Source: Limnohabitans sp. (GTDB lineage: Bacteria; Pseudomonadota; Gammaproteobacteria; Burkholderiales; Burkholderiaceae_C). From it: a DNA stretch of 64,000 bases. This document shows, piece by piece, positions 5,251-61,480 of the stretch; positions within the stretch are counted from its first letter, which is position 1; the number at the start of each line of letters is the position of its first letter. The notes below the pieces were generated by a model, which saw only the letters and a list, made by a program, of their open reading frames with translations, was not told the origin of the DNA and did no database searches. The stretch covers positions 124,001 through 188,000 of the forward strand of contig NZ_JAOASQ010000023.1 of assembly GCF_030158565.1 (NCBI RefSeq). The letters are read 5' to 3'. The position numbers and the translations under genes were made by a program.

Positions 5251-6282
5251 ATGAACGCCCAAGTCATCAACGTTCAGCTGGACCCCGTCGACGCCGCGCT
5301 TGAAGTGGGTTTGAAAGACCTGTGGTTTCCGGTGTGCCCCTCCGGCTTTGTCAAAGAAAACCCGATTTCCCTGCGCCGACTGGGCTACAAAATCGTGCTG
5401 TGGCGCGATGCCACAGGTCAAGTCCACGCGCTGGAAGACCATTGCCCGCACCGGGGTGCTCCGCTGTCGCTGGGCGTCATCCTGGGTGACCGCATCGCCT
5501 GTCCGTACCACGGTGTGGAAGTGCGCCACGACGGCACCGTGATGCGCGTGCCCGGCAGCCCGGGTTGCAAGCTCGAAGGCTCACGCCCCACCCGCAGTTT
5601 CCACACCGCAGAATCGAATGGCGCGATCTTCTTGTACAACGCCAGCAACCCGGCACTCGACGAAGCGCCACCGCTGCGCCTGCCCGAACAACTGACCTCG
5701 CCCGAGTGGTCGTCTTTCCTGTGCTACACCGAATGGGGTGGCGACTACCGCTATGTGATCGACAACGTGATGGACCCCATGCACGGGGCCTACCTGCACA
5801 AGCAGTCGCACACCATGGCCGAAGGCGACATGACCGCCGAGTTCCAGATCCGTGAACTCGACAACGGCTTCATCTTCGAAAAGAAGCACCAGCGCGATGT
5901 GAACTTTGACTGGACCGAATGGCTGGACACCGGCATCCACCTGATGCGGCTGGAAATCCCCTACCCCAAGACCGGCGGGCCTGGCGGCAACTTCACCATC
6001 ATCGGCAGCTACACCCCGATCACCAACCGCGTCGCAGGGGTCTTCCACTGGCGCTGCCGCAAGGTGGACGGTTGGCAACGCGACACCTGGCGCTTCCTTT
6101 ACAAAAACCGCCTGGAGCAGCGCCACTGGAACGTGTTGGAGCAAGACCGCGTGGCCGTCGAAAACATGGAGCCCGACGCCAACAAGCGCGAGCACCTCTA
6201 TGCCCACGACATGGGCATCGTGCGACTGCGCCGCCACCTGCGCAAACTGGCCACTGAACAACTGGCCCCAAACGCCGCCTGA
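5251..6282 (+). CDS. Rieske 2Fe-2S aromatic ring-hydroxylating oxygenase, alpha subunit
   Basis: Rieske motif DHCPHRGAPLSLG...CPYHGVEV; catalytic domain DNVMDPMHGAYLH. Confidence 0.92.
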   Translation: MNAQVINVQLDPVDAALEVGLKDLWFPVCPSGFVKENPISLRRLGYKIVLWRDATGQVHALEDHCPHRGAPLSLGVILGDRIACPYHGVEVRHDGTVMRVPGSPGCKLEGSRPTRSFHTAESNGAIFLYNASNPALDEAPPLRLPEQLTSPEWSSFLCYTEWGGDYRYVIDNVMDPMHGAYLHKQSHTMAEGDMTAEFQIRELDNGFIFEKKHQRDVNFDWTEWLDTGIHLMRLEIPYPKTGGPGGNFTIIGSYTPITNRVAGVFHWRCRKVDGWQRDTWRFLYKNRLEQRHWNVLEQDRVAVENMEPDANKREHLYAHDMGIVRLRRHLRKLATEQLAPNAA

Positions 6283-39740: not shown

Positions 39741-40343
39741 TCAGCCCAGTTGTTTCAAGAAAGTGGCGCTGTCCATCACCTCAGCCACCGAAGCCATGTC
39801 GGCCAGCGCGGCCTGGTGCGCGGCGTCACTGAAGGCGGCGCAACCGTCCGACAAAACAATGACGTGGTAGTCACGCACATGCGCATCGCGCACCGTGCTG
39901 GCGACACCGCCGTTGGTCACGATGCCGCAGACCACCAGCGTGTCGATGCCCGATTTTTTGAGCACCCAGTCGAGTTGCGTGTTGAAGAAGGCCGAATACG
40001 CCACCTTGAACACCGACACATCGACCAGCGGGGCCAACACATCCACATTGGCCTGCCCCCGGCTGCCGGGTGCAAAGTCACCCTTGCGCAAAAACGGGCG
40101 GCGCTCTTTCAGGTGCGCCGAGATCATGGGCTCGCCCTGCGCATCGGGCCAGAGGGTGAACAGGCTGGCCGTGACCAAGCCACCTCGCCCTTTGATGGCG
40201 CGCGCCACCGGGGCCATGCGCTCAGGCAGCTTGACGGCTTCGGCGCTCAGGGTGTTGCCCCGGGCATAGGCCCCGTCGGGGGCCAAAAAATCATTTTGCA
40301 GGTCGACGATGACCATGCCCAGTTTGGCGTTCTTCAGGTTCAT
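39741..40343 (-). CDS. Isochorismatase-like cysteine hydrolase (N-carbamoyl/maleamate amidohydrolase-type)
   Basis: KLGMVIVDLQNDFLAPDGAYAR...DTLVVCGIVTNGGVASTVRDAHVRDYHVIVLSDGCAAF. Confidence 0.88.
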   Translation of the reverse strand: MNLKNAKLGMVIVDLQNDFLAPDGAYARGNTLSAEAVKLPERMAPVARAIKGRGGLVTASLFTLWPDAQGEPMISAHLKERRPFLRKGDFAPGSRGQANVDVLAPLVDVSVFKVAYSAFFNTQLDWVLKKSGIDTLVVCGIVTNGGVASTVRDAHVRDYHVIVLSDGCAAFSDAAHQAALADMASVAEVMDSATFLKQLG

Positions 40344-42412
40344 GCGTTACGCTCCACCAGCAGGTTGCCCAGTTTGTCGACCCGACCTTCAAAGCCCGGC
40401 TCCAGCCACACTGTCGTATCGGGCTGCTCCAAAATTGCCGGGCCTTGCACCACGGTGCCCACGGGCAGGCTCAAACGCTCGTAGCGCTGGGCTGTCCACC
40501 ATTGGCCCTGGTGGTAAACCTGTTGCTCACCCACCGGGGTGGTGCTGCCTTCGCCTTGTGGGGCCAGCACCGCCAAATCGAACTTGGGACGACGCCCAAT
40601 CCGGGCATAGCGCAGGTTCATCACGCGGATCACCGGGCCTTGCAGCACGCGGCCAAAGGCGTGCTGGTAAGCCGACTCAAACGCCGCCAGCAATCCTGCG
40701 GCGTTCAACTGATCGCGCTTCACAGGCACTTGCAGCGTGTGGGTCTGGCCCATGTAAAGCATGTCAAAGCTGATGACTTCGTCCACCTGCACGAAGTTCA
40801 CACCGGCAGAATCGAGGCGCAGCTGGCAAGCTTCGGCCAGGCTGTCCACCCGCTGCAGCAAAGCAGGCCAGGCCACATCGGCCAAAGCCACGTTCAGGGT
40901 CTGCACCGCGTCGTGGCGCATGTCGGCCATCACGCAGCCCAGGGCCGACGTCACGCCCGGGTAACGCGGCACGATGCCGGTGGTCACGCCCACCTCGCGC
41001 ATCATGGCGCACACATGCAGGCCGCCGCCGCCGCCAAACGGCATGTAGGCGAACTGGCGTGGATCGTGCCCGCGCTCGATCGACACCACGCGGATCGCGC
41101 CCGCCATGCGGGCATTGGCCACCGTCAAAATCGCCTCGGCCGCGGCCAAGGCCGTCAGGCCCAAAGGCTCGGCCACATGCTGGGCAATGGCTTTCTCGGA
41201 CAAGCCCGAATCGAGCTTTTGCAACAAGCCACCGCCCAAAGGCCGGTCGGCCGCGATGCGGCCCAGCAGCACATTGGCGTCGGTCACCGTAGGACGGGTG
41301 TTGCCACGGCCATAACAGGCCGGGCCGGGGATGCTGCCGGCCGACTCGGGGCCAACCTGCAACATGCCGCCCGCATCGACCGAAGCAATCGAGCCGCCAC
41401 CGGCACCGATGGTCTCGATCTGGATCATGGGCGAGCGCACCACCAAGCCAAACTCGATGGACGTTTGTGCAGCGAGGGCCGCTTCGCCACCGGCCACCAG
41501 CGACACGTCAAACGAGGTGCCGCCAATGTCGCCCGTGATGACATTCTCAAAACCCGAAGCGCGGGCGATTTCGGCGCAGGCCATCACGCCCGCAGCGGGA
41601 CCTGACAGCGCGGTGCGCACCGGCACATCACAAGCGGTCTGGCGTGACATCACACCGCCATTGCTTTGCACGATCAGCAATTCGCCGCCAAAACCCTGGG
41701 CACGCAAATCGCCATCCAGCCGCTGCAAATAGCTGCCCACCACAGGCTGCAAGGCGGCATTCAGCGTGGCCGTTGAGCAGCGCTCGAACTCGCGGATCTC
41801 GGGCAGCACTTCGCTGGCCGCCGTCACATAGCTGTTGGGCCAGATCTCGCGCACGGCGGCCACGGCCGCTTGTTCGTTGCCGGGGTTGGCATAGGCGTGC
41901 ACAAAGAACACGCACACCGCCTCGCAGCCTTCGGCCAGCAGGGCGTGTGCCTGTGCGCGGACCTGGTCCAGATCGACCGGCGTGTGCAATTGGCCATCGG
42001 CCAGCACACGCTCGTCCACTTCCAGACGCCAGGCGCGGGGCACCACCGGGGTGTAGCTGCCGCGCAGGCCCCAGGTTTGTGGGCGGTCGCGGCGGCGCAT
42101 CTCCAGCACATCGCGAAAACCCCGTGTGGTGATGATGCCGGTGCGGGCGATCTTGCGCTCCAGCAAGGCGTTGGTGCCCACGGTCGTGCCGTGCACGATG
42201 GTGGCGATGTCTTTGGCGCCTTCTGCACCGGTGACCCCGGTCACTTTGGCGATGCCGTTCATGAAGCCCCGGGCTTCTTCACCCCGGGTCGAGGGCACTT
42301 TGACGATGCGGGCCTGGCCGGTTTTTTCGTCCAGCACAAACAGGTCGGTGAACGTTCCGCCCACGTCCACGCCGACCACCCAATGCGGTTGATTCACAGA
42401 CTGCTCGCTCAT
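40340..42412 (-). CDS. Hydantoinase/oxoprolinase family protein, HyuA subunit
   Basis: VGVDVGGTFTDLFVLDEKTG...ATIVHGTTVGTNALLERK...TGDIGGTSFDVSLV. Confidence 0.95.
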   Translation of the reverse strand: MSEQSVNQPHWVVGVDVGGTFTDLFVLDEKTGQARIVKVPSTRGEEARGFMNGIAKVTGVTGAEGAKDIATIVHGTTVGTNALLERKIARTGIITTRGFRDVLEMRRRDRPQTWGLRGSYTPVVPRAWRLEVDERVLADGQLHTPVDLDQVRAQAHALLAEGCEAVCVFFVHAYANPGNEQAAVAAVREIWPNSYVTAASEVLPEIREFERCSTATLNAALQPVVGSYLQRLDGDLRAQGFGGELLIVQSNGGVMSRQTACDVPVRTALSGPAAGVMACAEIARASGFENVITGDIGGTSFDVSLVAGGEAALAAQTSIEFGLVVRSPMIQIETIGAGGGSIASVDAGGMLQVGPESAGSIPGPACYGRGNTRPTVTDANVLLGRIAADRPLGGGLLQKLDSGLSEKAIAQHVAEPLGLTALAAAEAILTVANARMAGAIRVVSIERGHDPRQFAYMPFGGGGGLHVCAMMREVGVTTGIVPRYPGVTSALGCVMADMRHDAVQTLNVALADVAWPALLQRVDSLAEACQLRLDSAGVNFVQVDEVISFDMLYMGQTHTLQVPVKRDQLNAAGLLAAFESAYQHAFGRVLQGPVIRVMNLRYARIGRRPKFDLAVLAPQGEGSTTPVGEQQVYHQGQWWTAQRYERLSLPVGTVVQGPAILEQPDTTVWLEPGFEGRVDKLGNLLVERNA

Positions 42413-44124
42413 GCTTGTTCCTTGGTGTAACCGAGTGCCGCGTCATTGGCGCGGTCTTTTTCAGTGCGCTCAGCGGGCTCACCCCAGCCGCCGCCGCCAG
42501 GCGTTTGCAGGCGCACGCGGTCGCCTTTTTTCAAATGGATGCCGAGCATCTTGGAGACCATCGGCGGGGTCTTCCACTCGCCGTTTTGGCAATACTCAAA
42601 CACGTTGGGCAAAGCAGGTTGGCCGCCGTGGATGCCTTTGGGGGCGGACTTGCCGCGCTCGCCAAAGATGAAGGCTTCGGCGCTGTCTTCGAGCAATTCG
42701 ATCTCATAAATCGCGCCCAGGCCGCCCCGGTGCTGGCCATCGCCGCCCGAGCCGGGGCGCAAGGCCCACTGGGTGAAGCGCACCGGGTAGGCCGCTTCCA
42801 GAATTTCCATGGGCGGGATGGTGGCGGTCGAGATCGGCGCATTGCCGTGCGACAGGCCATCGCCATCCGAATGGCCGCCGTGCCCGCCACCAAAAAAGCT
42901 GAACATCACCCAGCGCTGGCCTTTGCGTTTGTCGTCGGTGCGGTGCCCGGCAATCGACAAGGCGTTGATGGTGCCGTAGGCATGGGCCACCGCCCGCTGC
43001 GGATCGGCCAGGGCCGTGGCGCTGAAGATCACGTCGATCATGCGCAAAATCGTTTCGGTGTAACCACCCACCGGACGGGGCCGCGACGCGCTGATCACCA
43101 GACCATCTGGAATGATGAAGTCCACCGCATCCAGCACACCCGCGTTGGCGGGCACATCGGGGAACACATGCTTCAAAGCCACATAACAAGCGGCCACGGC
43201 TGTGGCGCGTGAGATGTTCACCGGCCCGGCGCACTGCGCCGAGGTGCGGGAAAAGTCCAGGGTCAAGCGGTCCCCGGCCACGGTCATGTCGAGCGCAATC
43301 GTCAGCAACTCGTCTTTCACGCCGTCGTTGTCGAGCACGTCTTCAAAGCTGTAACGGCCATCGGGCAAGCTGCCGATGTGCGAGCGCATCAGGCGCACGG
43401 CACGGGTGCGCAGCTCCACCAGGGCCTGCGCCACTTTGGCGTCGCCGTATTCGTCGAGCAAGCCGTCCAGGCGACGCGCACCCAATTCAAGCGCGGCCAG
43501 CTGGCCGTTCAGGTCGCCCCACAGGCTGTCGGGCAGGCGGGTGTTGGCGCGCAAGATGGCCAGCACATCGTCGTCGAGCACGCCGCCGCGCAAAATGCGC
43601 ACCGGCGGGATCTGCACCGCTTCTTGCCAGCACTCGGTCGCGGCAGGGTTGTAGTTGCCGGGCACCGCACCACCCACGTCATGCCAGTGTGCGGCCGAGG
43701 CCAAAAAGCAATACAGCTGGCCGTTGCGAAAGCAGGGCTTGACCAGCTTGAAGTCGTTGGCGTGTGTGCCGCCTTCGTAGGGGTCGTTGAACAGCCACAC
43801 ATCGCCCGGCTGCATGCCGCCGCGCTCAGCCGCCACGCGCATGGCGGCGCGCACGGCAAAAGCCATGGCCCCAACAAACACGGGCAGGCCTGACTTGCCC
43901 TGGATCAAGGTGTCACCTGTGATGGCGTCGTACAGGCCGTGGCAAGCGTCGTGCGCCTCGGCAATGATGGGGTTGAAGGCGCTGCGGTAGAGCGTCGCGT
44001 CCATCTCGTCGGCGATTTGTTCGAGCCGGCCGCGCAGCACGGCCAAAGTCACCGGATCCATCACGGGGTCCATGACCGGATCCATCCCAGCGGGTGTTTG
44101 AGAAGCTGAAACCATCGGGTTCAT
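42409..44124 (-). CDS. Hydantoinase B/oxoprolinase family protein, HyuB subunit
   Basis: DPVTLAVLRGRLEQIADEMDATLYRSAFNPIIAEAHDACHGLYD...VWLFNDPYEGGTHANDFKLVKP. Confidence 0.95.
   Translation of the reverse strand: MNPMVSASQTPAGMDPVMDPVMDPVTLAVLRGRLEQIADEMDATLYRSAFNPIIAEAHDACHGLYDAITGDTLIQGKSGLPVFVGAMAFAVRAAMRVAAERGGMQPGDVWLFNDPYEGGTHANDFKLVKPCFRNGQLYCFLASAAHWHDVGGAVPGNYNPAATECWQEAVQIPPVRILRGGVLDDDVLAILRANTRLPDSLWGDLNGQLAALELGARRLDGLLDEYGDAKVAQALVELRTRAVRLMRSHIGSLPDGRYSFEDVLDNDGVKDELLTIALDMTVAGDRLTLDFSRTSAQCAGPVNISRATAVAACYVALKHVFPDVPANAGVLDAVDFIIPDGLVISASRPRPVGGYTETILRMIDVIFSATALADPQRAVAHAYGTINALSIAGHRTDDKRKGQRWVMFSFFGGGHGGHSDGDGLSHGNAPISTATIPPMEILEAAYPVRFTQWALRPGSGGDGQHRGGLGAIYEIELLEDSAEAFIFGERGKSAPKGIHGGQPALPNVFEYCQNGEWKTPPMVSKMLGIHLKKGDRVRLQTPGGGGWGEPAERTEKDRANDAALGYTKEQA
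44051..44085. repeat. In-frame 12-bp near-tandem repeat encoding MDPV x3 at the HyuB N-terminus
   Basis: Minus-strand ATGGATCCGGTCATGGACCCCGTGATGGATCCGGT. Confidence 0.9.
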
Positions 44125-44624
44125 CCTTGTTTTCTATTCTTGAGCAGGGGCAGCAAACCGCCTGCATCGACCATGTCCATCAAAAAACCGGGGATGGCCG
44201 CGCAAGCCAAAACCTGGCCGTTGGCACGGATCACCTGCGGGGTGTCGCCTTCAAAATGCAAGGCCACGCGCTCGCCCTCTTCGATCTTGTCGGCCTCGGG
44301 GCAAGTCAAGAGCAACAAGCCCAAGTTGAAAGCGTTGCGGAAATACAGGCCGCTGTACGACGGCGCGATCACCGCTGCCAAGCCCAAATGCCGCAGCACA
44401 CCGGCCGCCTGCTCACGCGATGAGCCGATGCCAAAGTTGGCACCAGCCACCAGCACATCGCCCGCTTGCACACCCGAGGCGAAGTCGGCACGCACCGCCT
44501 CCAGGCAATGCCAGCCAATCACCTCCAGGCCGTGCTTCATGTAGGCGCCTGGCGCCAGGGCATCGGTGTCCACATCGGCGCCAACGCGCCAAACTCTTGC
44601 GTTCTTGAAACTGCGCGTATTCAT
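44121..44624 (-). CDS. 3-isopropylmalate dehydratase small subunit-like (LeuD/DmdB-type)
   Basis: GADVDTDALAPGAYMK...VLVAGANFGIGSSREQAAGVLRHLGLAAVIAPSYSGLYFRNAFNLGLLLL. Confidence 0.9.
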   Translation of the reverse strand: MNTRSFKNARVWRVGADVDTDALAPGAYMKHGLEVIGWHCLEAVRADFASGVQAGDVLVAGANFGIGSSREQAAGVLRHLGLAAVIAPSYSGLYFRNAFNLGLLLLTCPEADKIEEGERVALHFEGDTPQVIRANGQVLACAAIPGFLMDMVDAGGLLPLLKNRKQG

Positions 44625-45907
44625 GCCAGCACCTCGCGTGCATCGCTGATGCGCCCGCGCAAAGCCGAAGCCGCCACGGTGTAGGGCGAGGCCAAATACA
44701 CGTTCACGCTGGCCGGGCCCATGCGGCCTTTGAAGTTGCGGGCGGTGCTCGAAATCACGGTGGCCCCTTCCGGGAAAGTCGCGCCGTAACCGGCGCAAGC
44801 GCCGCAACTGTTGGGCAAGATGGTGGCGCCTGCGTCCTGCAGGATCTGCATCACGCCTTCTTGCGTGGCCTGCGCTTGCTCGCGGGCGCTGGCCGGCGCC
44901 ACCATGAGCTGCACGCCAGCGGCCACGCGCTGGCCCTTGAGCACCTGCGCGGCGGCGCGCAGGTCTTCGAGCTTGGCCCCGGTGCAGGCACCGATGTAGG
45001 CAATGCTGGGCACCACGTCGGCAAACTCGGCCACATCGCGCGTGTTGGCCGGGCTGTGCGGCGCGGCCACTTGCGGGCTCAGGCGCGAGGCGTCAAACAT
45101 GTGTTGCTCGTACTCTGCGTCTTCGTCGGTGAACCACTGCTCGGCACCGCTGAGTTTGTCTTGCGACACCCCAATCGATTTCAGGTGCGCCAGAGTCGTG
45201 GCATCGGCCGCGATCAAGCCCGCTTGTGCGCCCATCTCGGCGCTCATGTTGGACATCGTCATGCGCTCGGCCATGGACAAGGCCTGCACGGCAGCGCCTG
45301 CAAACTCCACCGCCTGGTATTGGCCGCCGTTCATGCCAAAGCGGGCAATCATGTGCAGCATCATGTCTTTGGCCGACACACCCGCTTGCAAGCGGCCATG
45401 CCAGTGCATGCGCAAGGTGCGCGGCACCTGCACCCAAATCTGGCCGGTCACGCACACGCCCAGCATCTCGGTGGCGCCAATGCCGAACATGTAGCAGCCA
45501 AACGCGCCGCCCGTGGGCGAATGCGAGTCGCCGCCCACGCAAAACATGCCGGGCTTCAAATGGCCCCGTTCGGGCAAAACCACATGGCAGATGCCTTCGC
45601 TGTCGATCACATTCGGCAGCTGCCATTGTTTGGCGGTGTCGCGGGTGATCTGGATGATTTTTTGCGCGTCAGCGTCTTGTGCGGGCACATAGTGGTCCAG
45701 CACCAGCACCACTTTGTTTTTGTCCCAGATCTCGGCGCCCAGTTCATCGAGCATGGGTTTCAAGCGCCGGGGGCCGGACGAGTCGTGGAACATGGCCAAG
45801 TCCACGTTGCAGGTCACCACCTCGCCCACGGCGACATGGGTGCGGCCAGCAGCGCGGGCAATCAGTTTTTGTGCCAAGGTTTGAGGCATGGTTTCGCTCG
45901 TGCTCAT
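44621..45907 (-). CDS. Aconitase/3-isopropylmalate dehydratase large subunit-like (LeuC/DmdA-type)
   Basis: TLAQKLIARAAGRTHVAVGEVVTCNVDLAMFHD...GMFCVGGDSHSPTGGAFGCYMFGIGATEM...AYIGACTGAKLEDLRAAAQVLKG...LPNSCGACAGYGATFPEGATVISSTARNFKGRMG. Confidence 0.93.
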   Translation of the reverse strand: MSTSETMPQTLAQKLIARAAGRTHVAVGEVVTCNVDLAMFHDSSGPRRLKPMLDELGAEIWDKNKVVLVLDHYVPAQDADAQKIIQITRDTAKQWQLPNVIDSEGICHVVLPERGHLKPGMFCVGGDSHSPTGGAFGCYMFGIGATEMLGVCVTGQIWVQVPRTLRMHWHGRLQAGVSAKDMMLHMIARFGMNGGQYQAVEFAGAAVQALSMAERMTMSNMSAEMGAQAGLIAADATTLAHLKSIGVSQDKLSGAEQWFTDEDAEYEQHMFDASRLSPQVAAPHSPANTRDVAEFADVVPSIAYIGACTGAKLEDLRAAAQVLKGQRVAAGVQLMVAPASAREQAQATQEGVMQILQDAGATILPNSCGACAGYGATFPEGATVISSTARNFKGRMGPASVNVYLASPYTVAASALRGRISDAREVLA

Positions 45908-45915
45908 TCAGCGCC

Positions 45916-46626
45916 TCACATGCCCAAATAGGCTTGCCGCAAAGTGTCGCTGGCCAACAGGTCGGCGGGCGTTCCCGCAAAACGGATCGTGCCGTTTTCC
46001 ATCACATACGCGCGGTCGGCAATGTCCAGCGATTGGCCCACGTTTTGCTCGACCAGCAAGACCGCCAGGCCCGTGCTGCGCAGCTGCGCGATCAGCGCGA
46101 ACATCTCTTCAACCAAAAGCGGCGACAAACCCAGCGAAGGCTCGTCCAGGATCAACAAACGCGGCTCGGCCATGAGGCCTCGGCCAATGGCCAGCATCTG
46201 CTGCTCGCCACCGCTCAAAGTGCCTGCCAGTTGCGTCACACGTTCCTTCAAGCGCGGGAAGGTCTCGTACACCTTGTCCAGGTTTTGTGAGCGGCGCTCG
46301 CGGCCCCGGGTGAAGGCGCCCAGCTCCAGGTTTTCATGCACGCTCAGGTTGGGGAAGACCTTGCGGCCTTCGGGCACCTGGATCAAACCATGCGTCACCA
46401 CCTCGCGCGAATGCATGCCGGTGATGTCCTGCCCATCGAACTGCACCTGCCCGGCACGCGTGGCCACCAGGCCACTCAAGGTCAGGTTAAGCGTGGTCTT
46501 GCCTGCACCGTTGCTGCCCAAGAGCGCCACCGTCTCGCCGGGCATGACCTGCAGGTCCACACCGCGCAAAACCTCGACCGCACCGTAGCCCGACTTCAGG
46601 CCTTGCACATTCAACAAAGCGCTCAT
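45916..46626 (-). CDS. ABC transporter ATP-binding protein, LivF-type
   Basis: GYGAVEVLRGVDLQVMPGETVALLGSNGAGKTT...LSGGEQQMLAIGRGLMAEPRLLILDEPSLGLSP. Confidence 0.95.
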   Translation of the reverse strand: MSALLNVQGLKSGYGAVEVLRGVDLQVMPGETVALLGSNGAGKTTLNLTLSGLVATRAGQVQFDGQDITGMHSREVVTHGLIQVPEGRKVFPNLSVHENLELGAFTRGRERRSQNLDKVYETFPRLKERVTQLAGTLSGGEQQMLAIGRGLMAEPRLLILDEPSLGLSPLLVEEMFALIAQLRSTGLAVLLVEQNVGQSLDIADRAYVMENGTIRFAGTPADLLASDTLRQAYLGM

Positions 46627-47399
46627 GCCTGGGCCTCCTTGGCGGCCAGCGCTTTGGCCGCGTTCTTTTGCAAACGCTCGGCGGTACCGTGGCCCAGATA
46701 GGCCTCGACCACAGCTTTGTTGTTCGTCACCTCGGCGGGCGTGCCGTGGGCAATCAATTGCCCTTGGGCCAACACCCAGACCTCTTGCGCCAGGCTCATC
46801 ACGGCTTGCATGACGTGCTCGATCATCAAGACCGTCACGCCGCTTTTGGCAATGCTTTGCACCACCGGAATCATCTCGGCAATCTCTTGCGGGTTCAGGC
46901 CCGCCAACACCTCGTCCAGCAGCAAAAGGCGCGGGCGCGTGGCCAGCGCACGCGCCAGCTCCAGGCGCTTGCGGCCGGCCACGGTGAGGTCACTGGCCAA
47001 TTTGTCCAGCTGCGGCGTCAGGCCCACCTGCTGCGCCACCGACTCGGCAAACTCCAGCGCTTGCGCACGACCGGGCAGGTGCAGATGCGCACCGACCGCG
47101 ATGTTTTCACGCACCGTCTGTGCGGCAAAAGGCTGCACGATCTGGAAGGTGCGGGTCAGGCCCATGCGGGCGTTCAGGTGAGGGGCTTGGCCGGTGATGT
47201 CTTGCCCGGCAAACACCACACGACCGGTGTCGGGCTTGAGGAAGCCGGACATGAGCGCAAACAAGGTGGTCTTGCCCGCGCCGTTGGGGCCGATCAGGGC
47301 GCTGAGACGCCCTTCGGTCACCGACAGGCTGACGTTTTGCACGGCTTTGAGGCCACCAAAGGATTTGCCCACGCCGTCGATTTGCATCAGCGTGCTCAT
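46623..47399 (-). CDS. ABC transporter ATP-binding protein, LivG-type
   Basis: VGKSFGGLKAVQNVSLSVTEGRLSALIGPNGAGKTTLFALMSGF...LTRTFQIVQPFAAQTVRENIAVG. Confidence 0.95.
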   Translation of the reverse strand: MSTLMQIDGVGKSFGGLKAVQNVSLSVTEGRLSALIGPNGAGKTTLFALMSGFLKPDTGRVVFAGQDITGQAPHLNARMGLTRTFQIVQPFAAQTVRENIAVGAHLHLPGRAQALEFAESVAQQVGLTPQLDKLASDLTVAGRKRLELARALATRPRLLLLDEVLAGLNPQEIAEMIPVVQSIAKSGVTVLMIEHVMQAVMSLAQEVWVLAQGQLIAHGTPAEVTNNKAVVEAYLGHGTAERLQKNAAKALAAKEAQA

Positions 47400-48388
47400 G
47401 ATTGGCCTCCGTGTTTTTCGCCTTCAGAGGGCTTGTGGCCGCGCAGCCACTGCAGCGGTGTGATGGTGCCCAGGCCAGCAATACCGCGTGGCAAGAACAT
47501 CACAATGCCGATCAACACCACACCGTAAATGACCATGTTGATGCCCGGCAACTGGCCGAACAAATTGCGCGTGAGGTCAGCCAGGATGTGCAGGCTGACA
47601 GCCCCCAAGAGCGGCCCCCACAAGGTGCCCAAGCCACCCACGATCGCGCCCACCAAAGCCTCCACAGACGTGTGCGAGCCAAAGGCGATGCCCGGGTCGA
47701 TGTACTGGAAGACCTGCACATAAAAGGCGCCACCTGCGCCCATCAGGCCACCCGACAAAATGGTGGCAACCAGCTTGACGCGCAAAGGGTTCACACCCAC
47801 AGCGCGGGCTGCGTCTTCGTTGTCGCGCACCGCTTGCAGATAAGCGCCAAAGCGCGAAGCCTTGAGCCAGGCCGTGACGCACAGCGCCAGCGTGACCAGC
47901 CCCAGCATGAGCCAGATGAACCCGGCCCGGCTGGCAAACTGCATGTTGGCGGCCGACTCCTGGAGCGGCAGCATCAGGCCGACACCTGCGCCGGTGAAAG
48001 GCACCGAGGTGGCCACGATGCGGAACACCTCGGCAAAAGCCAGGGTGACCAGCGCAAAGTACGAACCCTTGAGGCCGTAGCGGAACGAGGCCGCCCCCAC
48101 AAAAGCACCCACACCGGCGGCAAAGGCCATGGCCAGCGGCAAAGCCACCCAGGGGCTCAGGCCCCACTGCATTTGCGCAATGGCCTGCACATAAGCGCCG
48201 GTGCCAAAAAACAGCGCATGGCCAAATGAAAACTGACCGCCAAAACCGCCCAGCACGTTCCAGGCTTGCGAGAGCAAACAGGCATACAAAGACGTCATGA
48301 CAAAGTTGAGCATCACGCCCGAATCGGTGAACAAGGGCACTGCCGCCACCAGCACCACAAACAGCGCGATGTTGCGAAAGTCTTTCAT
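47396..48388 (-). CDS. Branched-chain amino acid-type ABC permease, LivM-type
   Basis: AWNVLGGFGGQFSFGHALFFGTGAYVQAI...LAFAEVFRIVATSVPFTGAGVGLMLP...LGTLWGPLLGA. Confidence 0.94.
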   Translation of the reverse strand: MKDFRNIALFVVLVAAVPLFTDSGVMLNFVMTSLYACLLSQAWNVLGGFGGQFSFGHALFFGTGAYVQAIAQMQWGLSPWVALPLAMAFAAGVGAFVGAASFRYGLKGSYFALVTLAFAEVFRIVATSVPFTGAGVGLMLPLQESAANMQFASRAGFIWLMLGLVTLALCVTAWLKASRFGAYLQAVRDNEDAARAVGVNPLRVKLVATILSGGLMGAGGAFYVQVFQYIDPGIAFGSHTSVEALVGAIVGGLGTLWGPLLGAVSLHILADLTRNLFGQLPGINMVIYGVVLIGIVMFLPRGIAGLGTITPLQWLRGHKPSEGEKHGGQS

Positions 48389-49257
48389 GCCTTCGCTCCA
48401 AAAAATCCTTGCGGCCTGAGCAAAAGCACCGCAATAAAAATCACAAAAATACCCACCTGACCCAGCGATTCACCCAGCAGCAAACCGCCCAGCGATTCGA
48501 CAACGCCGATCAACAAACCGCCCAGCAATGCCCCGGCAAAACTGCCCATGCCGCCCAGCACCACGATGGTGAAGGCCACCAGCACAAAGCCATTGCCCAC
48601 CTGTGGGTTGACGTAATAAGCCGGCATCAAAAAGCAAGCTGCGGCCCCCAAACTGGCCAGGCCCAAGCCAAAGCACATCGCGTAGACATGGTCCACATCG
48701 ATGCCCATCAAACGGGCACCTTGTTTTTCTTTGGACACCGCGCGGATGGCGCGACCCAGGTCGGTCTTTTGCACGATGAGCAACAACGCGGCCGACACCA
48801 CCAAGGCCCCACCAAACGCCACCAACTTGGGCAGCGCGATGAAGGCCGGGCCGATCTCGACCGTGCTCAGGGTGTAAGCGGTTTCAATGGTTCGGGTGTC
48901 GGATTTGAAAAACAGCAAAGCCAGGTTTTCCAGCACGATGGACAGGCCCAGCGTGACCAGCAGAATGTTTTCGTCTTTGCCATGGCTGGCGCGGTTGATG
49001 ACACCGCGCTGCAGCGCATAGCCCAGAACGAACATGGCCGGCACCATGATGGGCAAGGCCAGGTAAGGATCGATCCCGAGCTTTTCCTTGAGCATGTACA
49101 CACCGTACAGCGCCACCATCAAGGCCGCGCCATGCGCGAAATTGATGATGTGCAGCACGCCATAAATCAGCGTCAGGCCCAGCGCAATCAGCGCATACAC
49201 GGCACCGGTGGTGATGCCGTTGAGCACTGACGGAAACAGGATGTTCAAGTCAAGCAT
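48385..49257 (-). CDS. Branched-chain amino acid-type ABC permease, LivH-type
   Basis: NGITTGAVYALIALGLTLIYGVLHIINFAHGAALMVALYGVYML...GGMGSFAGALLGGLLIGVVESL. Confidence 0.95.
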   Translation of the reverse strand: MLDLNILFPSVLNGITTGAVYALIALGLTLIYGVLHIINFAHGAALMVALYGVYMLKEKLGIDPYLALPIMVPAMFVLGYALQRGVINRASHGKDENILLVTLGLSIVLENLALLFFKSDTRTIETAYTLSTVEIGPAFIALPKLVAFGGALVVSAALLLIVQKTDLGRAIRAVSKEKQGARLMGIDVDHVYAMCFGLGLASLGAAACFLMPAYYVNPQVGNGFVLVAFTIVVLGGMGSFAGALLGGLLIGVVESLGGLLLGESLGQVGIFVIFIAVLLLRPQGFFGAKA

Positions 49258-49283
49258 CGGGAGTCTTTCAGTTCAATGCCAGA

Positions 49284-50486
49284 TCAGCCCTTGAGCGGGA
49301 AGACCGGCTCGACTTCGCGGTAGTCGCGCGGCACGATCACCTTGATGTCGCCTTTGGTGACCTGGGTCATCAAAGGCTGTGCGCCCATGTTCTGACCGTT
49401 CACAAACTGTGTAGGACCGTAGGGCATGATGTGGTTGGCGAACTTGCTGGAAGCCAGCGCGTCGATGATGGCGGCGCGGTCTGGCGACTTGGCGCGCTCG
49501 ATCGCATCGGCCAGCAGCATCATGGCGGTGTAGGTCATGAAGACTTCATAGCTGAAGAACTGGCCTTGGGCTTCCACACGTTTTTTGAGTTCGGCAGAGC
49601 GCTTGTCCTTGGGGTTGAACCAATGGTTGCAATCGATGATGCCGTTGGCCGCCTCAGGGAATTCCTTGACGAACTTGTAGCTTGACGCCGCGCCACCGAG
49701 CACCGAATAGATGGCCTTGGGTGTGATTTTTTGCTGCTGCAAAGTGCGCACCAGCAAGGCGTATTCGTTGTAGTAGTTGGCAGGGATCAAGATGTCGGGG
49801 TTGACCTGCTTGATGCGCAGCGCGATGTTGTTGAAGTCACGCGTGGGGTTGGCGTGCTTGATGATCTCTTTGACTTCGTAGCCGTAGCCGGGCAGCTCTT
49901 TGGCCAGCAAGTTGGCGGTGCCCGTGCCGAATAGCGACTCTTCGTGCACGATCATCACGGTGCGGGCGGGCTTGCCAGCGGCGGTGTTCAAAACATGCAA
50001 GCTGGACACGGCCACTTCGGCGCACTTTTTGTAGCCAGGGCCAAAGCGGAAGGTGTTTTTCAGGCCACGCTCGACGATCTGGTCGGCCACGCCGACGTCG
50101 ACCACATGGGGCAGGTTGTACTTGGCTGCGGCTTGGGTAGTGGCCAGGCAAATGGCGGAGGCAAAAGCACCGACGACGGCGCTCACACCGGCTTCGTTCA
50201 TCTTCTCGATTTCGGCAATGCCTGCTTGCGGGTTGGACTGTGCATCGCCCAGCATCGCCTCAATCTTGGCGCCGCCCAGCGACTTGATGCCACCGGCCTT
50301 GTTGATGTCTTCGATCGCCATCTGCGCGCCCAGGCGGCACTGCTGGCCCGAGTAAGCCAGGGCACCCGTGACAGGGTGCAACACACCGATCTTGATGGGT
50401 TTGGGTTGTGCCCCCCCCACCAACGGAAACGCGAGTGCCGAGGCCGCAGCAGCGGACTGGCCCATGAAATGGCGACGTGTGGTCAT
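49284..50486 (-). CDS. ABC transporter substrate-binding protein, LivK/amide-type
   Basis: Tat-like N-terminus MTTRRHFMGQSAAAASALAFPLVGGAQPKPIKIGVLHPVTGALAYSGQQCRLGAQMAIEDINKAGGIKSLGGAKIEAMLGDAQSNPQAGIAE. Confidence 0.94.
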   Translation of the reverse strand: MTTRRHFMGQSAAAASALAFPLVGGAQPKPIKIGVLHPVTGALAYSGQQCRLGAQMAIEDINKAGGIKSLGGAKIEAMLGDAQSNPQAGIAEIEKMNEAGVSAVVGAFASAICLATTQAAAKYNLPHVVDVGVADQIVERGLKNTFRFGPGYKKCAEVAVSSLHVLNTAAGKPARTVMIVHEESLFGTGTANLLAKELPGYGYEVKEIIKHANPTRDFNNIALRIKQVNPDILIPANYYNEYALLVRTLQQQKITPKAIYSVLGGAASSYKFVKEFPEAANGIIDCNHWFNPKDKRSAELKKRVEAQGQFFSYEVFMTYTAMMLLADAIERAKSPDRAAIIDALASSKFANHIMPYGPTQFVNGQNMGAQPLMTQVTKGDIKVIVPRDYREVEPVFPLKG

Positions 50487-50508
50487 GGAAACATCCTTTT
50501 CGTGAAGG

Positions 50509-51312
50509 TCAATGAAAGTTGGCGGACAGCTCTTGGCTTACCCACACCTTGGCATCGATGCTGCCAACGCGGGACAACTGCATCTGGTATTCGTACCGGT
50601 CCGGTCGGTACAAGCCATGCAGCCATTGGACGGGACGGTCGTCCTCGTCATAAATCAAACGCCGCACCGCCAGCAAGGCCGATCCGACGGACACATCCAG
50701 GTGCTGGGCCATGCCCACATCGGCCAAGCGGGCCGAAATGGTTTGCTCAGCACGCCCCACCTTGACGCCCGACTCTTCGAGCAGCACCAAGATGGGCTTT
50801 TGCATCAATTCACGTTTGCCAAAGCCCGCCGAGATCGACTCGGGCACCCAGGTGGTGATGTGCGAGAGCGGCCCTTCGGGCGTGCTGCGCACACGTTCGG
50901 CTTTTTGCACGGTGACACCGGCTTGCAGCTGCAAGGCGGCGGCCACATCCACCGGCGCACGCATGCGCTCGACCGACAAGACCTTGACCTTGGTGCGCAG
51001 ACCCATGGTGACCAGGTTCTCCAGCAGGCCCGTCAGGCGCGCCTGCTGGCCGGTGGCCATGGTGGCCGCTTGCATCTGCACTTCATTGGCCCGCGCTTGC
51101 ACTGGGCGGGTGCCGCGACCGGGCTCACGGCTGATCAGGCCTTCTTGCGCCAACTGCGACAACGCTCGGCGCACCGTGACACGGGCCACGCCGAACTGGC
51201 CCATCAAGGCCATCTCGCCGGGCAAACCGGCATCAAAACGGCCTTCGCGCAATTGCTCGCGCAGCACCAGATAAATCTGGTGGTACTTCGGCAAAGGGAG
51301 ATTGGGGTTCAT
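50509..51312 (-). CDS. GntR family transcriptional regulator with UTRA domain
   Basis: YHQIYLVLREQLREGRFDAGLPGEMALMGQFGVARVTVRRALSQLAQEGLISREPGRGT; UTRA-type C-terminus. Confidence 0.95.
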   Translation of the reverse strand: MNPNLPLPKYHQIYLVLREQLREGRFDAGLPGEMALMGQFGVARVTVRRALSQLAQEGLISREPGRGTRPVQARANEVQMQAATMATGQQARLTGLLENLVTMGLRTKVKVLSVERMRAPVDVAAALQLQAGVTVQKAERVRSTPEGPLSHITTWVPESISAGFGKRELMQKPILVLLEESGVKVGRAEQTISARLADVGMAQHLDVSVGSALLAVRRLIYDEDDRPVQWLHGLYRPDRYEYQMQLSRVGSIDAKVWVSQELSANFH

Positions 51313-54833: not shown

Positions 54834-55454
54834 ATGATCGGAAGATTGAACACCAGACCCGCGAGAATTCCATTGGCACTACCCCCAGCATCCCCCCGAA
54901 AACTGTCACATACGCGAACCGTCGTTTACAGCGGCTATGACCGCGAAGACGGCCTGTGGGACATCGAAGCCGAACTGACCGACGTGAAAACCTTTGGCTT
55001 CAGCGTGCCCAACGAGCGCCCCTTCCCTGCCAATGAACCGATCCACGGCCTGAAGATCCGCGTCACGCTGAACAACAAAATGGTCATCCAGGACATCGTC
55101 ACCGCCATGGACGACATCCCCCACCCCGAGTGCGCGGGCGCACCCCACGGCATGCACCGACTGATCGGCCAGACCATGGGCCCGGGCTGGCGCAAAGTCA
55201 TCAACGAACACGTGGGCGGCACCGAAGGCTGCACCCACCTGCGCGAGCTGCTCTTCAACATGGCGACCGCCGCCTACCAAACCCTGCCCGCCGGCCAATG
55301 GCACCGCCGCGAAGTGGCCGGCGAGCCCCAACCCGAAATCACCAAGCCGCCCTACCACCTGGGCCAATGCCACAGCTGGGCCTTTGACAGCCCGACGGTG
55401 CAGAGGGCTTATCCGATGTTTTTCAAGCCGAAGGCGTCATCAATCGATGTGTAA
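54834..55454 (+). CDS. DUF2889 family protein
   Basis: YSGYDREDGLWDIEAELTDVKTFGF...EPIHGLKIRVTLNNKMVIQDIVTAMDDIPHPECAGA; N-terminal start uncertain. Confidence 0.8.
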   Translation: MIGRLNTRPARIPLALPPASPRKLSHTRTVVYSGYDREDGLWDIEAELTDVKTFGFSVPNERPFPANEPIHGLKIRVTLNNKMVIQDIVTAMDDIPHPECAGAPHGMHRLIGQTMGPGWRKVINEHVGGTEGCTHLRELLFNMATAAYQTLPAGQWHRREVAGEPQPEITKPPYHLGQCHSWAFDSPTVQRAYPMFFKPKASSIDV

Positions 55455-57653: not shown

Positions 57654-58049
57654 TCAGGAGTCGCGGCCGACTTCGCGGATGTAGCGGCGGTAGTCGCCAT
57701 GCGAGATGGGTGTGCAGCCATTGGTCGGGCGGTTGTACACATAGGTCTGCACGGGCTGACCTTGCAGCGGGCCGCTGAGCACAGTCACTTCTTCGCGCCA
57801 GTATTGCGAGGCGGCGCGGTCGCCGGGCACCATGTCTTCGACCACATCCAACCGGGCCAGGTGCGCGTCATCGACTTCATAGACTTCGCCTGAAACCACC
57901 CCATCGCCCAGCAGCAGGCCGGGGTAGCGGCCCAGATCGACCAAGCGGCCGGGCACTTGGGCAGCGCCCGTGAAGCGGGCGCCATGCATTTCGGCCTCCA
58001 GGCGCAGGCCGGGCATCAAGGTGCCGTAGATGAAAAGAGCGTGTGACAT
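57654..58049 (-). CDS. Gamma-glutamylcyclotransferase / AIG2-like family protein
   Basis: MSHALFIYGTLMPGLRLEAEMHGARFTGAAQVPGRLVDLGRYPGLLLGDGVVSGEVYEVDDAHLARLDVVED. Confidence 0.88.
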   Translation of the reverse strand: MSHALFIYGTLMPGLRLEAEMHGARFTGAAQVPGRLVDLGRYPGLLLGDGVVSGEVYEVDDAHLARLDVVEDMVPGDRAASQYWREEVTVLSGPLQGQPVQTYVYNRPTNGCTPISHGDYRRYIREVGRDS

Positions 58050-58244
58050 GCGCTGAATTTTGCGCCAACACAGCCCACACAACCTGCCTCGAAATTGACA
58101 CGCATCAAGCCCCAGCCACCGTGTCGCCTGTTGGCAGGCCGCGCACACACAGCCGTTTAAACTGATTGGCAAGAGACTGGCCTGTCCCGCCACAGGGACG
58201 AGTACACAACAAAGGCAGACACAAGGCGCAAGCCAGAGGTGCAG

Positions 58245-59636
58245 ATGAAAGCAGAACAAAACGAACTCATCACCCGCATTGGCCCGGGCACGCCCTGCGG
58301 TGCGGTGATGCGCCACTATTGGCAGCCCGTGGCCCTGGTGGATGAATTCAACCCCGCGCTCGACCCGCGCATGGCGATTCGCCCCGTCAAAGCCGTGCGC
58401 ATTCTGGGCCAAGACCTGGTGCTGTTTCGCAACGCGCAGGGCGACTATGGTTTGCTCGACCGTGACTGCCCACACCGAGGGGCCGATTTGGCTTTTGGCC
58501 GCAACGAAGGCGATGGCCTGCGCTGCCCTTTTCATGGCTGGAAGTTTGACGTCACAGGCCAGTGCATCGAAACGCCCGCCGAGCCGACCGGCAGCACCTT
58601 GTGCAAGCGTGTGCGCCAGCGCAGCTACCCGATCATCGAGCGCAGCGGCATTGTGTTTGGCTGGTTCGGCCCCGAAGGCCAGACGCCACCACCGCTGCCC
58701 GGCATTGACGCCTTCAGCGCTCCGGCCACCCATACCTTTGCCTTCAAAGGGCTGTGGCATTGCAATTGGCTGCAAGCGTTTGAGGTGGGCATTGACCCCG
58801 CGCATGCCTCGTATCTGCACCGCTTTTTCAATGACGAGTCGCTCGAAGGCAGCTATGGCCGCCAGTTCCGGGGCGCGAGCGCGGGCGATGTGGAAGGTGA
58901 GCGCTGGCCCATGACGCGGGTGATGCGCGAGCTGGACCAGCCCGAGATCTCGTTTGAGCCCACCGATGCGGGCCTGCGTCTGACGGCCCTGCGCCCGATC
59001 AACGAGGCGCTCACCCATGTGCGGGTGACCAACGCGCTGTTCCCGCACACCTTTGTGATTCCGCTGTCAGAGACCATGACCATCACGCAGATGCATGTGC
59101 CGGTGGACGACACGCACACCTATTGGTATTCGGTGTTCACCAGCTTTGACGGGCCGGTGGACAAAGAGGCCATGCGTAACCAACGCCTGCCCTCGGTCAC
59201 CCTGCCTGACTACATCCCCAAAGCGGGCAAGCACAACCACTGGGGCTTCAACCCCGAAGAGCAAATGAGCCGCACCTACCTGGGCATGGGCGAAGACGAC
59301 ATCAACGTCCACGACCAGTGGGCCTGCGAAAGCATGGGCGCGATCCAGGACCGCACCCGCGAACACCTGGGCACCAGCGACAAGGTCATCATGGCCAACC
59401 GCCGCCTCTTGCTCAAAGCCATCGAGACGGTGCAGGCCGGGGGCTTGCCGCCCGGCTTTGCGCAGGGCGCCGTGGCCAGCCAGCGCATCGGCCCCGACAC
59501 GGTGGACGGCATCGCGCCCAGCGGGCAATGGCCGCAGTGGTGGCGCGAGGCCTGCGATGCCAAACGCAGCGGCGCACCGTGGGATGCCGCCCTGCCAGGC
59601 CATGCGCCCACTCCAGCCGACACGAGCGCGGCATGA
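58245..59636 (+). CDS. Rieske 2Fe-2S oxygenase (phthalate dioxygenase-like alpha subunit)
   Basis: MKAEQNELITRIGPGTPCGAVMRHYWQPVALVDEF...DRDCPHRGADLAFGRNEGDGLRCPFHGWKFD...GIDPAHASYLHRFF. Confidence 0.93.
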   Translation: MKAEQNELITRIGPGTPCGAVMRHYWQPVALVDEFNPALDPRMAIRPVKAVRILGQDLVLFRNAQGDYGLLDRDCPHRGADLAFGRNEGDGLRCPFHGWKFDVTGQCIETPAEPTGSTLCKRVRQRSYPIIERSGIVFGWFGPEGQTPPPLPGIDAFSAPATHTFAFKGLWHCNWLQAFEVGIDPAHASYLHRFFNDESLEGSYGRQFRGASAGDVEGERWPMTRVMRELDQPEISFEPTDAGLRLTALRPINEALTHVRVTNALFPHTFVIPLSETMTITQMHVPVDDTHTYWYSVFTSFDGPVDKEAMRNQRLPSVTLPDYIPKAGKHNHWGFNPEEQMSRTYLGMGEDDINVHDQWACESMGAIQDRTREHLGTSDKVIMANRRLLLKAIETVQAGGLPPGFAQGAVASQRIGPDTVDGIAPSGQWPQWWREACDAKRSGAPWDAALPGHAPTPADTSAA

Positions 59637-61114
59637 GCTTCGCTGAACGCTGCGGCCTGCACAGCCCCGAACGCCAAGCGGCTTGCGATCAACTGATTCG
59701 GCAGGTCGAGGCCTCGGGCATCGAGCTGATCCGCCTGGGCTGGTGTGACCTGCATGGCGTGGTGCGCGGCAAGACCCTCGTGGCCTCGCAACTGCGCCAG
59801 GCGCTGGCCAACGGCATCGGCATGGTCAGCACCTTGCTGCTCAAAGACAGCTCGGACCGCACCGCCTTCAAGGTGTTCGAGTCGGGCATCGAAGAGACCC
59901 TGCCCGGCTTTGCCGGGGCCAGCAATTTCACGCTCATGCCCGACCCGGCCAGCTGGCATGTGCTGCCCTGGACCGAGAAAACCGGCTGGCTGCAGTGCCA
60001 GCCTTACATGGCCGATGGCGGCATCGTGCCGCTGGACTCACGGCATGTGCTGCAGCAGGCCGTGCAGCGCCTGGCCGAGCGCGGCTGGCAGATGCGCTGC
60101 GGGCTCGAAATCGAGTTCCACATCTACCGCCTCAAAGACCCGCTGCACGGGCACGACCTGGACCCGGAGCGCGCAGGCTGGCCCGGCCCCGCGCCCGAAG
60201 TCAGCCTGATCCACCCGGGCTTCAACCTGCTGACCGAGGCCTGGTTTGACCGGGCCGAGGAGCCGCTGCGCATCGTGCAGCGCACCGCGCAGGCGCTGGG
60301 CCTGCCGCTGATTTCGCTCGAAATTGAACTCGGCCCCAGCCAGGTCGAAGCGGTGTTTGACGTGAGCGATGTGCTGACGGCTGCCGACAACATGGTGCTG
60401 TTTCGCAATGCCACGCGCCAAGCCCTGCGCCGCGCCGGGTACCACGCCACCTTCATGTGCCGCCCGCCGTTTGAACACATCATGTCGAGCGGCTGGCACC
60501 TGCACCAATCGGTCTGCGAGTTGACCACGGGGCGCAATGTGTTCATGCGCGAGGCTGCCACACCGGGTGTCGGTGCGCTGGATGCGCGGCAGGTGCTGAG
60601 CGATGCGGGTGCTGGCTGGCTAGCCGGTTTGTTGGCGCATGCTCCGGCGCTCACGGCTCTGTGCACGTCCACCAGCAATGGCTATGGGCGCTTTCGGCCC
60701 AACGCCATGGCGCCGCAGTCCATCTTGTGGGGCCGCGACAACCGGGGCGCCATGCTGCGCGTGATCGGCGCACCCGGCGACAAGGCCACCCGCATTGAAA
60801 ACCGATTGGGCGAGCCTGCGGCCAACCCTTACCTGTACATGGCCTCGCAAATCCACGCGGGGCTCGATGGCGTAGACGCATTGCTGCAAGCGCCTGAAGC
60901 CACTGAAACGCCTTATGCACCGGGGGCTGCCTCCATCCCCACGTCTTTGGCCGATGCAGTGCAGGCGCTGCAGCAAGATGCAGCCTTGCGCCAGTCGCTC
61001 GGCGAATCCTTTGTGGGCTACTACAGCACCATCAAGCGGGCCGAGCACCAACGATTGGCCCAAGCTGAAGATGCGACGGAGTTTCACAAGCGTGAATACT
61101 TCGGCCGAATTTAA
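59633..61114 (+). CDS. Glutamine synthetase family protein (possible gamma-glutamylamide synthetase)
   Basis: IELIRLGWCDLHGVVRGKTLVASQL...CGLEIEFHIYRLKD...SGWHLHQSV...RFRPNAMAPQSILWGRDNRGAMLRVIGAPGDKATRIENRLGEPAANPYLYMASQI; ATGA overlap with the Rieske gene. Confidence 0.92.
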   Translation: MSFAERCGLHSPERQAACDQLIRQVEASGIELIRLGWCDLHGVVRGKTLVASQLRQALANGIGMVSTLLLKDSSDRTAFKVFESGIEETLPGFAGASNFTLMPDPASWHVLPWTEKTGWLQCQPYMADGGIVPLDSRHVLQQAVQRLAERGWQMRCGLEIEFHIYRLKDPLHGHDLDPERAGWPGPAPEVSLIHPGFNLLTEAWFDRAEEPLRIVQRTAQALGLPLISLEIELGPSQVEAVFDVSDVLTAADNMVLFRNATRQALRRAGYHATFMCRPPFEHIMSSGWHLHQSVCELTTGRNVFMREAATPGVGALDARQVLSDAGAGWLAGLLAHAPALTALCTSTSNGYGRFRPNAMAPQSILWGRDNRGAMLRVIGAPGDKATRIENRLGEPAANPYLYMASQIHAGLDGVDALLQAPEATETPYAPGAASIPTSLADAVQALQQDAALRQSLGESFVGYYSTIKRAEHQRLAQAEDATEFHKREYFGRI

Positions 61115-61150
61115 CAACCCCTAGAAAGCGCGTTTGAGCGCGATGCACTG

Positions 61151-61480
61151 ATGATCACGATCCACCTGCAACCCCACGACCCGACCCAAGCCGCGCACAG
61201 CCTGCAAGTGCAGCCCGGCCAAAGCCTGATGCAAGCGGCCGTCGATGCCAATTTGGACGGCATCCAGGCCGATTGCGGCGGGCTGCTGACCTGCGCCACC
61301 TGCCATGTGGTGGTTCAAGCGGATTGGCTGTCCAAGCTCCCGAACATGAGCAGTGACGAAGACGGCATGCTAGCCTTCACCGCTCAGGCGCGGGAGCCAG
61401 GCAGCCGCCTGTCGTGCCAGATCATGCTGAGCGAAGAACTGGATGGCCTGCAGGTGACGCTGCCCACCAGCCAGTATTGA
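61151..61480 (+). CDS. 2Fe-2S ferredoxin
   Basis: ADCGGLLTCATCHVVVQADW...SRLSCQIML: adrenodoxin-type Cx5Cx2C...C. Confidence 0.92.
   Translation: MITIHLQPHDPTQAAHSLQVQPGQSLMQAAVDANLDGIQADCGGLLTCATCHVVVQADWLSKLPNMSSDEDGMLAFTAQAREPGSRLSCQIMLSEELDGLQVTLPTSQY

Follow-up and report, generated by a model that had tools for sequence, protein, structure and literature searches.

The arrangement of genes considered here is already known from Hydrogenophaga intermedia PBC, whose sad operon comprises an oxygenase (sadA), a glutamine synthetase (sadB) and a ferredoxin, and specifies a 4-aminobenzenesulfonate 3,4-dioxygenase that yields 4-sulfocatechol (PMC5632844). The operon was present in all Hydrogenophaga genomes compared, and an unknown compound of similar structure was suggested as its natural substrate (PMC5632844). 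Glutamine synthetase (GS) genes also adjoin related oxygenases in Novosphingobium, according to a paper that likewise raises the question of the natural substrate (PMC3704786), and the enzyme NpaA1 glutamylates 1-naphthylamine (PMC11335346). The locus analyzed here lies in a Limnohabitans sp. genome (GCF_030158565.1), within a window of 64,000 nucleotides (positions 124,001 to 188,000 of contig NZ_JAOASQ010000023.1), and consists of three tightly linked plus-strand open reading frames at window positions 58245-61480 that encode a Rieske oxygenase, a GS-like protein and a ferredoxin (Table 1). We regard it as probable that these genes are orthologs of sadA, sadB and sadD, and that their products would glutamylate and then dioxygenate an acid-bearing aromatic amine. 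Gan et al. reportedly isolated sadC separately in 2012, the reductase being encoded apart from the sad operon, and are said to have found that deletion of sadB abolished activity in E. coli.

Ligase, oxygenase and ferredoxin

Coordinates and Pfam assignments, all above cut-off (LigXa_C and Rieske for the oxygenase, Gln-synt_C for the GS-like protein, Fer2 for the ferredoxin), bore out the layout described in an earlier reading of the DNA made without database searches (hereafter, the sequence-only reading), namely three closely spaced plus-strand genes of which the first two overlap in ATGA (59633-59636). The ferredoxin gene begins 36 bp past the GS stop codon and, as that reading had also stated, no reductase or GATase gene is adjacent; none lies nearby either.

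The best PDB match of the GS-like protein is NpaA1 (8wwu, 349 bits), followed by a GS at 144 bits, and NpaA1 is also the best fold match of its predicted model (template modelling score, TM, 0.87-0.90). The protein lies far under the curated cut-offs for GlnA (TIGR00653, 191.9 bits against a cut-off of 429.15), GMAS and gamma-glutamylputrescine synthetase. The tree proposed as a check by the sequence-only reading groups it with NpaA1 and TdnQ (Shimodaira-Hasegawa-like approximate likelihood ratio test, SH-aLRT, 99), apart from GlnA, GMAS and PuuA, of which GlnA and PuuA form long branches whose own placement is unsure. The grouping with canonical GlnA that would have refuted that reading thus did not appear. 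Residues for metal, ATP and glutamate are all kept (E129, E131, E212, E220, H269, R321, R339, R344, E357 and R359 in Salmonella numbering), and inspection of the active site, likewise proposed beforehand, revealed the loss of the ammonium site, with the equivalents of S53, Y179 and E327 replaced by I, L and M. Also present is an additional N-terminal loop ('motif 15'), which in NpaA1 forms part of the lining of the amine pocket (PMC11335346) and which GlnA and GMAS lack. By these sequence features the GS-like protein is not GlnA, and it is a predicted gamma-glutamyl aromatic-amine synthetase of the GoaS type (NpaA1, AtdA1, TdnQ).

The position of NpaA1 F75, a phenylalanine that helps to hold the aromatic amine (PMC11335346), is taken by K71 in the window protein, followed by D72 and R76. 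The Lys-Asp pair occurs in all 24 Rieske-linked GS proteins of the alignment and in none of 8 aniline-type or other GS-like proteins, and it is kept by every full-length GS homolog of a set of 80 named homologous loci (hereafter, the 80-locus set). Because this K-D...R/K loop replaces the Phe of aniline and naphthylamine ligases, the basic pair in the amine-entry loop suggests that the substrate bears a carboxylate or sulfonate, i.e. that it is an anionic aniline. The loop signature is a mark that may separate acid-bearing-aniline ligases from neutral-aniline ligases, and would be useful for annotating genes currently labelled as glutamine synthetase.

In the oxygenase, the Rieske cluster ligands (C75-x-H77 / C94-x2-H97) and the iron site (D184-x2-H187-x4-H192 plus D357, the latter invariant across homologs) are intact. 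The closest solved structures, by sequence and by fold, are isophthalate dioxygenase (9ina) and phthalate dioxygenase (7fjl/7v25), alpha-only enzymes acting on aromatic acids, in agreement with the single-component phthalate-type alpha subunit postulated by the sequence-only reading and with the Pfam assignment. Since identity to plasmid relatives falls from at least 46% for GS-linked proteins to about 35% for the remainder, the window protein belongs to a branch of its own. The four ferredoxin cysteines are intact as well (C42-x5-C48-x2-C51 and C89), and the best PDB matches include putidaredoxin-type ferredoxins. The sequence-only reading was right in naming an adrenodoxin-type ferredoxin, but its suggestion that this protein replaces a two-subunit oxygenase does not hold, the oxygenase being alpha-only and the ferredoxin its presumed electron donor. 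Within the 80-locus set, 57 loci have a ferredoxin gene 3' of GS. Three alphaproteobacterial versions instead present a small CHMI-family protein directly after GS, in the place occupied by the ferredoxin in other loci (L021, 10427-10780; L022, 10572-10913; L024, 10365-10703).

Conservation and genomic setting

GS is immediately preceded by the Rieske gene in 79 of the 80 named loci, the contig of the 80th starting inside the GS gene. Among 301 genomes sampled from the window's family, the Rieske subfamily is present in 63 other genomes, the GS subfamily in 65 and both in 62. Adjacency with conserved gene order is seen in 61 of these 62, the genes being spaced by -24 to 144 bp. Pairwise distances for one protein track those for the other (r = 0.79, reached in 0 of 1000 permutations), although host relatedness alone would produce part of this value. 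The pairing of Rieske and GS genes is more than chance. With about a fifth of the sampled family genomes (64/301) carrying it, the operon probably represents an ordinary environmental trait. The closest named homologous loci are those of Limnohabitans genomes (GS identity of 88-91%), and a Rieske homolog at 71-78% identity occurs in 11/11 genomes drawn from Hydrogenophaga or close relatives and from Tepidicella, one of them with a second homolog at 60%; by sequence, these homologs are consistent with being sad, in line with the reported conservation of sad across Hydrogenophaga (PMC5632844). A divergent GntR regulator resembling that of Polaromonas JS666 accompanies 32 loci of the 80-locus set and is not present in the miaB-ffh loci typical of Limnohabitans. 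In Palleronia and Pseudooceanicola (L021 and L024), related Rieske matches fall in two pieces across neighboring annotated open reading frames and are not adjacent to GS.

Six Limnohabitans genomes share the order miaB, GGACT gene, ffh and lack the operon between the last two; at the junctions that were read, these two genes lie close to each other. Because these six genomes keep the site without the operon, the operon is an accessory cassette at the miaB/GGACT-ffh site of Limnohabitans, either gained or cleanly lost. GGACT-family enzymes free amines from gamma-glutamylamines, and the GGACT-type gene, divergent and 195 bp upstream of the operon, could on that account be taken for the missing deglutamylase of the system. 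This assignment was rejected, and we hold it to be very improbable: the gene is kept at the same place in the six operon-less genomes, two operon-bearing genomes (G001 and G008) have no match to it, and beyond Limnohabitans the upstream neighbor of the operon is usually another gene. Because operon-less genomes keep it, the GGACT gene belongs to the neighborhood and not to the operon.

Table 1. Features of the operon and its upstream flank, in window coordinates.
Feature	Position	Strand	Length and basis
SadA-like Rieske non-haem iron oxygenase, alpha-only, phthalate/isophthalate dioxygenase fold	58245..59636	+	463 aa; Pfam, structures, motifs
SadB-like GS-like ligase, predicted gamma-glutamyl aromatic-amine synthetase	59633..61114	+	493 aa; NpaA1 match, tree, residues
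Loop T67-T77 codons, K71-D72...R76 signature, predicted anion-recognition element	59831..59863	+	alignments
SadD-like putidaredoxin/adrenodoxin-type [2Fe-2S] ferredoxin	61151..61480	+	109 aa; Fer2, PDB matches
Divergent intergenic region 5' of the operon, presumed promoter	58050..58244	.	sequence
GGACT/AIG2-like gamma-glutamylamine cyclotransferase-family gene, neighbor outside the operon	57654..58049	-	PF06094

A sigma-70 scan of the divergent intergenic region returned 0 promoter-like sites and no consensus. Further upstream, the window carries in one run (40340-51312) genes for hydantoinase A and B, an aconitase-family protein, a Liv-type ABC transporter and a UTRA-GntR regulator. No support emerged for linking the operon to the genes at 46-55 kb (Liv transporter, UTRA-GntR, FadD/DUF2889), which are kept at operon-less sites; the DUF2889 gene (54873-55454) is conserved near miaB in Limnohabitans with the operon present or absent. 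The best match of the Liv genes to the transporter of the JS666 operon is 44%, for one ATPase, and the substrate-binding protein does not match that of JS666, which also speaks against the link. The window further harbors a second, unrelated Rieske oxygenase gene (5251-6282), with 24-28% identity to sad-type proteins. In the genome of the window (3.05 Mb, 75 contigs, 92% complete), no canonical GlnA was found, the GS-like gene being the sole Gln-synt_C match. Relatives have GlnA, and its absence here is probably an assembly gap at 92% completeness.

Proposed route, substrate and alternatives

The proposed route builds on the observed gene content, gene order, conservation, family placement and active-site residues; we infer glutamylation as the first step, the dioxygenation, the substrate, the product and the reductase. 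The GS-like protein would couple L-glutamate, with use of ATP, to the amine nitrogen of an acid-bearing aromatic compound, and the alpha-only Rieske oxygenase would then dioxygenate the ring of the gamma-glutamyl conjugate at the amine-bearing carbon and the next carbon. The product would collapse to a catechol (protocatechuate, if the substrate is 4-aminobenzoate), its nitrogen being released either in glutamine or in the form of glutamate and ammonia. Electrons would reach the oxygenase from the ferredoxin, itself reduced by a reductase encoded elsewhere.

Clues to the substrate come from the neighborhoods of related operons. In plasmid relatives the gene set is extended by a flavin adenine dinucleotide (FAD) ferredoxin reductase and sometimes by a GATase-type hydrolase. 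A 4-hydroxylaminobenzoate lyase gene (PF16155, 9e-64) and a nitroreductase gene lie close to the operon in M. nodulans, and a gene annotated as DUF4863 (the same family as 4-hydroxylaminobenzoate lyase) and nitroreductase pieces lie near it in Caballeronia. Protocatechuate (pca) genes occur near the operon in Palleronia, and a maleylacetate reductase gene adjoins the Rieske-GS pair in Novosphingobium resinovorum SA1, a sulfanilate degrader (PMC6167471, PMC5632844). In Hydrogenophaga, a gene of the FAH family comes after the ferredoxin; FAH-family hydrolase genes were counted in 28 loci and gentisate 1,2-dioxygenase genes in 17. A small ABM-domain protein gene follows the operon, 3' of the ferredoxin gene, in 20 Comamonadaceae loci (among L058-L102). 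Weighed as a whole, these neighborhoods point to aminobenzoates or aminobenzenesulfonates as likely substrates. The known xenobiotic substrate in this family is 4-aminobenzenesulfonate, and the natural one is most likely an aminobenzoate, e.g. 4-aminobenzoate. The 3-aminobenzoate mab cluster of Comamonas QT12 was set aside, the text describing it being without mention of GS or Rieske.

Three alternatives bear on the order of steps, the substrate and the product. The GS-like protein might act after Rieske oxidation of the free amine, moving the amino group of the hydroxylated product to glutamate; PMC3704786 reports that such a role was put forward for SadB on the basis of deletion and transposon work. 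We deem this improbable for the window protein: AtdA1 and NpaA1 glutamylate the free amine, on which the dioxygenases of their systems cannot act directly (PMC11335346, PMC4539516), and the window protein keeps the full ATP, glutamate and metal site together with the extra amine-pocket loop. The amine could instead be aliphatic or a neutral aromatic (isopropylamine, aniline, naphthylamine), such amines being accepted by GS-like ligases as a group (PMC11335346), yet K71 replaces the key Phe (F75) of aniline and naphthylamine ligases, the Rieske partner is of the phthalate/isophthalate rather than the two-subunit aniline type, and neighbors elsewhere are hydroxylated-benzoate genes, so that a substrate of this kind is improbable. 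The product, finally, could be gentisate instead of a catechol, with an aminobenzoate (e.g. 2- or 3-aminobenzoate) hydroxylated towards 2,5-dihydroxybenzoate. Genes for gentisate 1,2-dioxygenase, FAH and 3-hydroxybenzoate 6-hydroxylase adjoin the operon in Polaromonas, Ramlibacter and Caenimonas, where examples of the 3-hydroxybenzoate 6-hydroxylase and gentisate dioxygenase genes after it score above curated cut-offs. The gentisate genes, however, start after a divergent MarR gene and could form an operon of their own, the product of sad is 4-sulfocatechol, and within Limnohabitans, where the gentisate link was rejected, no gentisate dioxygenase lies above the curated cut-off. Because LigB-family (protocatechuate-type) dioxygenases occur in 20/20 Limnohabitans genomes tested and gentisate dioxygenases above cut-off do not, protocatechuate is favored in this genus, and the gentisate route is unlikely, though less so than the other two alternatives.

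Several points weigh against the glutamylation and dioxygenation of an anionic aniline by a sad-type operon. No GATase or rhodocoxin-type reductase is found near the operon, and the idea of a dedicated reductase elsewhere in the genus was dropped, PF14759 reductases having 0 matches in 20 Limnohabitans genomes. The case for orthology to SadA, SadB and SadD of strain PBC is built from architecture, clade and conservation across the genus instead of direct alignment, and it is an alignment with NpaA1, rather than a structure of the window protein, that places K71 at the pocket. Many Comamonadaceae copies lie beside gentisate 1,2-dioxygenase and 3-hydroxybenzoate 6-hydroxylase genes, and a gentisate product fits less simply than the conversion of 4-aminobenzoate to protocatechuate. 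In a broader proposal, to which we assign slightly less than an even chance, the widespread chromosomal sad-type operons would be natural aminobenzoate catabolic operons, deploying a glutamylation-first oxygenase for anionic anilines, recognized by the K-D...R/K loop. If so, the sulfonate activity of strain PBC would be a side activity, and the natural-substrate question of PMC3704786 and PMC5632844 would be answered.

Comparison with known systems

The sequence-only reading had proposed that an amine or aromatic amine is glutamylated and then oxidized. The inference is supported, the order of steps by homology, but the scheme is not a new form of gating, given the sad operon, and the candidate substrates can be restricted to aromatic amines that bear an acid group. 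What is added here is the accessory cassette with its empty sites, the loop signature, the aminobenzoate context and the unlinking of the GGACT gene.

Among known systems, the isophthalate/phthalate dioxygenases (Comamonas testosteroni KF1; 9ina, 7fjl) offer the nearest solved Rieske fold and are also alpha-only, but share about 30% identity with the window protein, act on unconjugated dicarboxylates and have no GS-like partner. The AtdA1/TdnQ/NpaA1 systems couple glutamylation to Rieske oxygenation through a ligase of the same wider clade, with the same catalytic residues and extra N-terminal pocket loop. Their operons, however, encode alpha and beta oxygenase subunits and a GATase, whereas neither a beta subunit nor a GATase is encoded near the window operon; their Rieske alpha subunits belong to another Rieske family (<35% identity, over short stretches only), and their ligases carry a loop Phe where the window has Lys-Asp...Arg and take neutral anilines as substrates. 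Plasmid operons of Polaromonas JS666, Cupriavidus, Caballeronia, Methylobacterium and N. resinovorum SA1 combine the same families (Rieske 57-59%, GS 43-48% identity) with the loop signature of the window protein and, in most, the ferredoxin family. They also include genes that the window operon lacks, namely an FAD ferredoxin reductase in most, and in several a GATase/C26 hydrolase, transporters and a regulator. Like the window operon, sad unites genes for an alpha-only Rieske oxygenase, a GS-like protein and a ferredoxin, has no two-subunit oxygenase and presumably relies on a reductase encoded apart. Compared with sad of strain PBC, the window operon resides in a Limnohabitans-like host, between miaB/GGACT and ffh, has no 4-sulfocatechol genes nearby, and probably acts on a natural carboxylate analog of the sulfonated substrate.

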